Positions 23,321-24,950 of a DNA stretch of 37,859 nt are shown piece after piece. The notes beneath the pieces are model-generated. The model saw only the letters and a program-made list of their open reading frames with translations, had not been told where the DNA came from and did not search any database. Within the stretch, counting starts at the first letter, position 1. The number at the start of each line of letters is the position of its first letter. Where the stretch lies: the NCBI GenBank assembly GCA_002897915.1, contig BDTS01000062.1:1-37859 (forward strand), read 5' to 3'. This stretch comes from a bacterium BMS3Bbin09 (GTDB lineage Bacteria; Nitrospirota; Thermodesulfovibrionia; UBA6902). The translations under genes and the position numbers were made by a program.

Positions 23321-23536
23321 TTAGCCCACCAGAATGTCTTCAGCAGAGGTGAAAGATACTTTGCCCTTTTTTTCTTTTGCCTCAAACTTTTTTATTTCAC
23401 TTAAATCCAGAACATTTTCATATAACTCAACTAGAGACTTCTTTATTAAAGTAGATTTGTCTTCATGAAAATGATCAGATAATTTTTTCAATATTTTTTC
23501 TTCGTCCTTGTTAAATCTGACAGATATTACTCCCAT
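23321..23536 (-). CDS. Ribbon-helix-helix antitoxin
   Basis: A 71-residue protein. VISVRFNKDEEKILKKLSDHFHEDKSTLIKKSLVELYENV is a ribbon-helix-helix DNA-binding domain, and a charged tail (KKFEAKEKKGKVSFTSAEDILVG) would bind the toxin, as in RelB-like antitoxins. It overlaps the upstream toxin gene by 10 bases, so translation is coupled, and its GGAG ribosome site lies inside the toxin gene. Toxin-first order is the reverse of classical relBE. Confidence 0.82.
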   Translation of the reverse strand: MGVISVRFNKDEEKILKKLSDHFHEDKSTLIKKSLVELYENVLDLSEIKKFEAKEKKGKVSFTSAEDILVG

Positions 23537-23796
23537 TGTTTGTACACCTCCTCTCTCTTTGCTATCGAAATTACATAATAATTATTTTTTTCAATATAGA
23601 ATATAGCTCTAAATTTGCCTTTTCTTAACCTGTAATATGATCGCTGTTCAGAAGACTTTAATTTTTTAATATCAAATAGCCCTAAATCGTTAGTAGCATT
23701 CAACGCAATAAAAACATTTTCAAATCTTTGAAAGACTTCTCTGAATAATGTTCCCTTTTTTACGGCCTTCTTAATACTGTCTTCATAAAGTATCAT
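23527..23796 (-). CDS. RelE/ParE-superfamily toxin
   Basis: An 89-residue toxin. A helix-rich first half (MILYEDSIKKAVKKGTLFREVFQRF) is followed by the diagnostic LFDIKKLKSS...YYRLRKGKFRAIFYIEKNNYYVISIAKREEVYKQW, matching the RelE/ParE pattern YRLRxGxyRvxY...v..i..R..vY. Such toxins cleave ribosome-bound mRNA or target gyrase; which of these applies cannot be told here. TTGACA at 23830-23825 may be its -35. It heads a two-gene operon with the antitoxin. Its AT-rich composition suggests transfer. Confidence 0.82.
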   Translation of the reverse strand: MILYEDSIKKAVKKGTLFREVFQRFENVFIALNATNDLGLFDIKKLKSSEQRSYYRLRKGKFRAIFYIEKNNYYVISIAKREEVYKQWE

Positions 23797-24105
23797 AATA
23801 TATGTTTACATTGTACTACATTTTTGTCAAGGCGTAATTTATTTGATTGGCTTAATCAGTTATAACGTATAGAGTTTTATCCTCAATGCCTCCGGCACTG
23901 CGGATAAAACTCTATACGATATACGTAATATCTATTTGCTGACTTTTTTGTCAAAAAGAGGCTCGGTGCAAAAAAATGGAAATTTCGAGCCAGGTCCCTG
24001 TGAAATTATAAATCATCCAAAGCCAACAGACAAGGAAAAAGATACGTAATGCCAATTACGAATTTCAAATTACGAATTACGAGAAGAAATAAAGACGGAA
24101 CGAAG
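23797..24105. other. 309 bp without a gene, containing a long hairpin
   Basis: It contains the 63-nt hairpin at 23861-23923, a GGCTCG...CGAGCC inverted repeat at 23960-23991 ending in CAGGTCCCTG, and a short repeated AATTACGAATT tract at 24053-24080. I see no coding region. Confidence 0.55.
23861..23923. repeat. 63-nt near-perfect palindrome
   Basis: Outer arms of 22 bp (23861-23882 and 23902-23923) pair with a single mismatch. The loop pairs again (TGCC-TCC-GGCA), so nearly the whole element folds. It lies 65 bases upstream of the toxin gene. It could be a miniature mobile element, an attC-like site or a terminator. Confidence 0.75.
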
Positions 24106-24612
24106 TTATTCTCTGTTGAAGCCTATCTTCCGGCTTTTTTTGATTTCATTGGTATCCATCAGACTATAAATCGCTTCAAAGACCACCTTAAACTGTTCAT
24201 CATATTTATTCTCAAGGGATTTAACTTTACGTGCCAATTGTGCATTGGAAGCAAGCATCTGTCTCAACTTAACAAATGTCCGAATAATAGCTATGTTTAC
24301 GTGAATGGCTCGTTGGCTTTTCAGGACTGTTGAAAGCATGGCCACTCCTTGCTCAGTAAATACAAATGGGGGATATCGTCTGCCGCCCCAACTTGAGGTC
24401 ACAAATTGTGACCTCAAGTGCCTAAACTCTTGAATATTAAGCTGAAACATAAAATCTTCAGGGAAGCGATCCATATTTCTTTTTACAGCTTGTACCAGCA
24501 CTTTTGTTTCAACTTCATAGAGTTTCGCCAAGTCCATATCGAGCATGATCTTTTGCTCTCTTATGAAATAGATTTTGTTTTCAATAATTTCCTGTGGAAT
24601 GATTTCAGTCAT
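24106..24612 (-). CDS. ORF6N domain protein (phage antirepressor-like DNA-binding protein)
   Basis: A 168-residue protein. Residues 8-100 are an ORF6N domain: [45 protein letters not shown], then [37 protein letters not shown]. The C-terminal part is a helical, coiled-coil segment ([29 protein letters not shown]) ending IKKSRKIGF, as in bacterial members. The family is named from phage antirepressors but is widespread as a lone chromosomal gene. AGAGGA precedes the ATG. A 27-bp palindrome sits 12 bases upstream of the start, and a 29-bp palindrome with the same core lies inside the gene where [10 protein letters not shown] is encoded. Confidence 0.9.
24391..24419. repeat. 29-bp perfect palindrome inside the ORF6N coding region
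   Basis: Perfect 14-bp arms surround a central base. The core is GGTCACAAATTGTGACC, extended by ACTTGA and TCAAGT. On the minus strand it encodes LRSQFVTSS in the most conserved part of the protein. Confidence 0.9.
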
Positions 24613-24624
24613 ACATATCCTCTG

Positions 24625-24651
24625 TTCAAGGTCACAAATTGTGACCTTGAA
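24625..24651. promoter_or_regulatory. 27-bp perfect palindrome upstream of the ORF6N gene; candidate operator
   Basis: Perfect 13-bp arms surround a central base, with the same GGTCACAAATTGTGACC core as the copy inside the gene. It ends 12 bases before the ribosome site and start codon, where a repressor would act. Confidence 0.75.
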
Positions 24652-24727
24652 GCTTATTGCACCTTATTATTTAGATAGAAACCCGAACGCCTTCAAGATT
24701 ATAGCAGTCAAGCGGTTGAATGGTTAG

Positions 24728-24743
24728 CTGTCAGGAATGACAG
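24728..24743. repeat. Inverted repeat CTGTCA-N4-TGACAG, copy 2
   Basis: CTGTCA-GGAA-TGACAG repeats the core found at 15375-15394 upstream of gyrA. It lies between the ORF6N promoter and the rho terminator. Confidence 0.45.
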
Positions 24744-24750
24744 GCAGCAC

Positions 24751-24775
24751 AGGTGGTCACAATCTGTGACCACCT
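24751..24775. repeat. Third GGTCACAA...TGTGACC palindrome
   Basis: A 25-bp palindrome with one mismatched pair next to the central base. It shares GGTCACAA-N2-TGTGACC and the same odd-base centre as the two ORF6N palindromes, but has different flanks (AGGT/ACCT). Confidence 0.7.
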
Positions 24776-24777
24776 TG

Positions 24778-24803
24778 TAGGGGCACGTTGCAACGTGCCC
24801 TTA
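24778..24803. repeat. TAGGGGC-type palindromic repeat
   Basis: TAGGGGCACGTTG faces CAACGTGCCCTTA, a palindrome with one weak pair near the tips. It has the same ends as the element at 22237-22262 but a different centre. Confidence 0.7.
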
Positions 24804-24829
24804 CGGCGGGGTTCAACACACAATAAAAA

Positions 24830-24922: not shown

Positions 24923-24950
24923 GTAAGGGCGTTGCATGCAACGCCCCTAC
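24923..24950. repeat. TAGGGGC-type palindromic repeat beside the rho stop
   Basis: GTAAGGGCGTTGCA faces TGCAACGCCCCTAC, a 28-bp palindrome with one mismatched pair, 11 bases downstream of the rho stop codon. Confidence 0.75.

Follow-up and report, generated by a model that had tools for sequence, protein, structure and literature searches.

The ORF6N locus and its palindromes

The window, that is the whole stretch of 37,859 nucleotides that was analysed, contains an ORF6N-domain gene on the minus strand (24106..24612), which encodes a protein of 168 amino acids and is the sole ORF6N gene of the genome. Three palindromes, none of them assigned to a strand, had been pointed out in and beside this gene in an initial annotation, and all are present at the places given there. 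The first, a perfect palindrome of 29 bp with 14-bp arms (ACTTGAGGTCACAAATTGTGACCTCAAGT, 24391..24419), lies inside the gene, about 207 bp into the ORF, and is the putative self-binding site. The second, in the leader, is perfect over 27 bp with 13-bp arms (TTCAAGGTCACAAATTGTGACCTTGAA, 24625..24651), and its centre is 26 nt 5' of the ATG at 24612, whereas the third spans 25 bp (AGGTGGTCACAATCTGTGACCACCT, 24751..24775) with a single mismatched pair, beside the centre. The candidate site sequence of the gene is TTGAGGTCACAAATTGTGACCTCAA. The codons under the 29-bp palindrome correspond to about residues 65-74 (LRSQFVTSS), in the last part of helix 60-70 and the loop after it.

The core GGTCACAANTTGTGACC is found three times in the window when up to three mismatches are allowed, versus a mean of 0.13 in shuffled sequences, which never reached three. 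In the whole 1.85-Mb genome there is only one other copy with at most one mismatch, which is part of a small remnant of an ORF6N gene on contig C83. The leader and internal palindromes are the same at base pairs 2-9 and unlike at 10-11, and the half-site of the third palindrome is of the type found in a subfamily that uses another reading frame (VVTNCDHL, see below); ORF6N-like flanks are absent around this third copy. A promoter of the ORF6N gene was looked for, and none was identified with confidence.

Several other elements are found nearby. Palindromes of the GTAGGGGCACGTTGCAACGTGCCCTTAC type are present at 24777-24804, abutting the third ORF6N palindrome, and at 24923-24950; they match many dispersed places of 28-30 bp in genomes of the same family as the window, as a REP-like repeat would. 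On the other side, a DUF6290/RelB-like antitoxin gene overlaps an ORF of 89 amino acids of unknown nature (23321-23796), the two probably forming a toxin-antitoxin pair, and between this pair and the ORF6N gene there is an inverted repeat whose 30-nt arms are 90% complementary and are separated by a 3-nt gap (23861-23923).

The protein matches the ORF6N profile PF10543 over its full length (1-86 of 86) with 124 bits (E 2.9e-36), above the gathering threshold of 27.8 bits, and by profile it is also a member of PHROG 4792, which comprises phage antirepressors, and of PADLOC PDC-S05, a candidate phage-defence gene (E 2.2e-62). The match to Phage_pRha (PF09669; 23.2 bits, E 1e-4) falls below the gathering threshold of 29.9. 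The AlphaFold2 model (mean pLDDT 86) is composed only of a KilA-N/antirepressor-like DNA-binding domain and long helices, and its best structural matches are antirepressor/KilA-N-like. No PDB fold match was significant, the best of the weak ones being the DNA-binding Dachshund/Ski domains, and no nuclease family was detected in the Pfam, NCBIfam, PADLOC and PHROG scans. In the model, the palindrome-coded loop is a place of variable length where the fold tolerates changes. In the literature that was searched we found almost nothing on the function of ORF6N proteins, and neither a binding site nor a self-encoded site was found described. In the Treponema saccharophilum plasmid pTS1 (L128), the ORF6N gene is flanked by DNA methyltransferase and restriction S-subunit genes, a placement that fits the PDC-S05 label, which is given to genes embedded in defence loci.

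The intragenic palindrome across the ORF6N family

ORF6N genes were retrieved from 296 genomes of the phylum to which the window belongs, from all phyla, and also from records of phages and plasmids and from viral contigs, many of the sampled genomes being metagenome-assembled. Within the phylum, an ORF6N gene was found in 136 of the 296 genomes, and each of the 120 distinct genes (120/120) has a palindrome at the homologous position, with nine or more of the 12 arm positions paired. Arm pairing in these genes averages 11.1 of 12, versus 6.95 after within-gene synonymous codon shuffling, so the check put forward in the initial annotation, whether the codons for LRSQ-VTSS form a palindrome beyond what synonymous codon choice predicts, has a positive outcome. 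With at least 9 of 11 pairs, the palindrome is also present in 72/75 genes from other phyla, 29/30 from viral contigs and 8/10 from phage and plasmid records; since the palindrome was placed as the best-scoring centre within the loop interval, these figures are to be compared with the background rate of 3% (53 of 1760 intervals passing the same test). A later batch of previously unused ORF6N genes had the palindrome in 72 of 72 cases. The same palindrome is found in plasmid records of cultured Bacteroides, Parabacteroides, Sulfuricurvum, Haliovirga, Segatella and Legionella, as well as in Geothrix fuzhouensis. Rha (PF09669) is a distant relative of the same domain, and in the three true Rha genes analysed the palindrome is absent from the homologous loop.

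The family palindrome measures about 27 bp and has a free 3-nt centre. Pairing between the arms exceeds 90% at positions 2-6 and 9-12, is 83-85% at positions 7, 8 and 13, and declines outward, to about half at positions 14-15 and about 21% at position 16. All of the variable half-site positions present several types of pair, and the two arms mostly change in concert. The resulting half-sites are diverse, and include TTGAGGTCACAA, TTGAAATCACAA, TTGAGGTCGCAA, TTAAGATTCCAA, TTAAGGTGCCAA, TGGATATCACAA and TCAAGGTCACAA, among others. An exact-pattern search of the 296 genomes placed 25 of the 32 inspected matches in ORF6N genes. The remaining ones comprised a few solo copies along with upstream copies and ORF6N fragments, and a control with the reversed pattern gave none. 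Some ORF6N genes (L055, L117, L267, L269 and L270) have two palindromes 36-60 nt apart within one loop.

In one subfamily the palindrome is coded in another frame, so that EVVTNCDHL is found in place of LRSQIVTSS, and the palindrome is nonetheless kept, which indicates that it is the DNA, and not the protein sequence, that is conserved. Together with the synonymous shuffling, this agrees with the proposal that the LRSQ-VTSS residues are partly held by a DNA-level constraint.

The initial annotation also expected a matching copy upstream, and as a general feature this did not hold. Of 257 genes, only about 40 have an upstream palindrome of the ORF6N type. Such palindromes are cognate to their own gene in 22 of 45 cases, against 19.7 expected, and a permutation test gave p=0.16. 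A close match between upstream and internal palindromes is seen only in L129, L242 and L219. A promoter operator of the classical kind was thus not supported as the rule, upstream palindromes being in the minority and not preferentially cognate. A leader palindrome at the position found in the window (-25/-26) is also present in L019 (two genes), L048, L089, L064, L058, L027 and L022.

Arrays of palindromes are present at a few loci. About seven diverged palindromes, with a spacing of about 54 bp, lie 5' of the ORF6N gene of L026 (1051-1476). The leader arrays of L019 (about -360 to -230 relative to the centre of the palindrome in its gene 3) and L089 (1594-1864) are homologous and have four palindromes apiece; the half-sites are unlike between the two copies while palindromy is retained. 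In L089 (631-1610; G008:C38) there are, in addition, two tandem N-terminal ORF6N halves, each ending at its palindrome and followed immediately by the next ORF6N start, such that a former internal palindrome has turned into the leader palindrome of the next gene.

Covariation between protein residues and half-site bases

In an alignment of 248 genes, all well-filled columns other than the palindrome codons were tested for covariation with the half-site. Base pairs 4-5 are associated above all with residue 41 (93% of the column entropy, with z=84 where the median column has about 1), which in the window gene is a Gln coded at 24490-24492 on the minus strand. The next-best columns for these base pairs, 38, 42 and 37, all belong to the helix predicted by AlphaFold2 at residues 36-45 (24478..24507, minus strand), so that residues 37, 38, 41 and 42 share one helix with the spacing i, i+1, i+4, i+5. 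Base pairs 7-8 are tied to residues 37, 25, 36 and 80, whereas base pairs 9-12 are tied to the loop residues 77-80 (GRRY in the window protein, 24373..24384, minus strand).

The identity of residue 41 corresponds closely to the bases of the half-site: Gln is found with TCACAA in 137/143 genes, Glu with TCGCAA in 41/42 and Lys with TTCCAA in 19/20, whereas Arg is found with TGCCAA, or mixed with TTCCAA. In total, 7 of the 248 genes break this code. In disjoint nearest-neighbour pairs (97 usable), residue 41 has changed in 41/41 pairs with changed bases and in 2/56 without (Fisher 2e-25), although the p-values are nominal and overstate independence, as the ORF6N genes share ancestry. A tree-based test restricted to well-supported branches left only three usable pairs, the domain being short, all of them in the predicted direction. 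When the half-site was predicted blindly from residue 41 in 72 unseen genes, 70 predictions were right, against a mean of 29 and a maximum of 40 in shuffled controls, and 34 of the 35 unseen genes with Lys at position 37 have G at base pair 7. Classical side-chain preferences pair Gln with A:T, Glu with C, and Lys or Arg with G, and the residue-41 code fits them.

From this coevolution and from the blind prediction we infer that the ORF6N protein very probably recognises the palindrome inside its own gene; the binding suggested in the initial annotation thus stands as a prediction, drawn from the way in which residues 41, 37 and 77-80 vary together with the base pairs in sequence comparisons. 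In the mechanism that we propose, ORF6N proteins would be DNA-binding proteins of the dimer type, with their own recognition palindrome placed within the codons of a length-variable loop. Helix 36-45 would be the recognition helix, with residue 41 reading base pairs 4-5 and residue 37 reading base pair 7 of each half-site. The outer base pairs 9-12 may be read by loop residues 77-80.

Explanations that do not involve recognition of the DNA have to be weighed against these data. The palindrome could be a by-product of a conserved LRSQ-VTSS segment, or residue 41 could simply touch the palindrome-coded residues, and indeed the segment belongs to the DNA-binding domain and adjoins loop residues 77-80. 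Nevertheless, the palindrome is lost on synonymous shuffling, and the other-frame genes, which have unrelated residues at this place, obey the residue-41 code in 22 of 24 cases, so that a cause confined to the protein is ruled out and this reading is virtually untenable. An mRNA hairpin in the coding region, controlling translation or decay, is structurally conceivable as a stem with a 3-nt loop, and it would agree with the free central pair. But the arm mismatches at positions 2-13 of the coding strand (43 G-T versus 61 A-C) show no preference for G-U, the palindrome has no Rfam match, and covariation with protein residues 37 and 41 is not expected of a hairpin, so that the residue-base code largely refutes this explanation and we regard it as very unlikely. 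The correction of imperfect palindromes by template switching is a known process, which could help the two arms to change together, and an old, functionless quasi-palindrome might be repeatedly repaired in this way. Such maintenance predicts neither the match of base pairs to distant recognition residues nor the constant place of the palindrome across phyla, and as the sole cause it is extremely unlikely in view of the residue-base code.

Possible roles of the intragenic site

The initial annotation considered a role in self-homing, and more generally the palindrome could be the insertion target of ORF6N genes, with the protein acting in mobility. Truncated ORF6N remnants do end at or near the palindrome in L089, L271 and L004, and palindromes recur 25-34 nt 5' of some ORF6N start codons. 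Against this, a target is normally destroyed on insertion, yet the palindrome is intact in every gene; the protein has only a DNA-binding domain and long helices, with antirepressor/KilA-N-like structural matches and no match to nuclease families; and ORF6N homology on one side only was seen at just 10 of 349 distinct palindromes, for which reason the palindrome was rejected as a general break or insertion point. Self-homing is therefore disfavoured, and a homing or integration role seems improbable. The genes themselves do move: in 75 comparisons between similar ORF6N genes (at least 78% identity), homology typically extends, by the medians, from about 9 nt 5' of the ATG to the stop codon, and the rho neighbourhood is conserved in relatives, whose ORF6N matches are found at other places. 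In L276 (1501-1517; G245:C22:161152), a solo 29-bp palindrome that lacks ORF6N flanks lies between nuoN and a HigA-like antitoxin gene; the sequence on its two sides was not conserved in an empty-site comparison.

Instead, we propose that the ORF6N protein, bound at the palindrome about 207 bp into the ORF, would block transcription of its own gene as a roadblock and so exert negative feedback. The gene would spread as a nearly bare ORF without a promoter, in which case an upstream operator is left behind and an internal one is brought along, so that the internal switch would travel with the gene and could also silence incoming copies of the same specificity. The bare-ORF spread, the concentration of pattern matches in ORF6N genes and the differing paralogues fit a self-contained feedback site that excludes copies of the same specificity. 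Taken jointly, self-recognition and some regulatory use of the site are likely, and we lean towards autorepression as its main use.

It is also possible, though doubtful, that the site serves mainly in heteroimmunity or copy control, shutting down newcomers of the same specificity so that only different specificities settle together. The half-sites of co-resident paralogues differ at 4.38 of 11 positions, more than the 3.79 ± 0.13 of identity-matched pairs from different genomes, and ORF6N genes are nomadic and often multi-copy. Nevertheless, the effect is moderate, the pairs are non-independent, and avoidance of cross-talk among autoregulators would yield the same pattern. In a related and equally tentative reading, ORF6N genes might be self-referential single-ORF elements, whose own gene is the only common genomic target of the protein and whose palindrome acts as a specificity tag, the genome accepting only unused tags. 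Such elements would resemble heteroimmune phages in exclusion, but with tag and reader in one overlapping stretch.

The arrangement that we propose for autorepression has partial counterparts. The E. coli repressor gene purR is autoregulated through two operators: purRo1 lies in the leader, between promoter and start codon, and purRo2 lies within the coding sequence. The leader and internal palindromes of the window gene have an arrangement of this kind. In the ORF6N case, the product's site inside its own coding sequence is a putative one, indicated by coevolution, and the counterpart of the leader operator would be the palindrome at 24625-24651, which has equivalents in the minority of genes described above. 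Furthermore, purR is a single gene, whereas almost all ORF6N genes, in whichever phylum, have the intragenic site, which varies along with the predicted recognition helix and is found in two reading frames. In mycobacteriophage L5, repressor bound at stoperators 3' of promoters stops elongation and confers immunity of one specificity, which resembles the proposed roadblock and its specificity-bound immunity; stoperators, however, are asymmetric and spread over the phage genome, in contrast to the one palindrome within the ORF of the regulator itself. Rickettsia palindromic elements are, like the ORF6N palindrome, carried in-frame inside coding sequences and tolerated in the protein, but they are longer and dispersed in unrelated genes, while the ORF6N palindrome has a fixed place in one family and coevolves with the protein.

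The palindrome is thus a feature far more general than the window gene alone, and a clear case of DNA-level selection shaping, in two reading frames, a protein segment that looks conserved. ORF6N genes are found in nearly half of the sampled genomes of the phylum, in many other phyla and in phages, and their function is essentially undescribed. Each of these genes reveals the putative site of its own protein, which provides hundreds of protein-site pairs from sequence alone, linked by a simple residue-to-base code.
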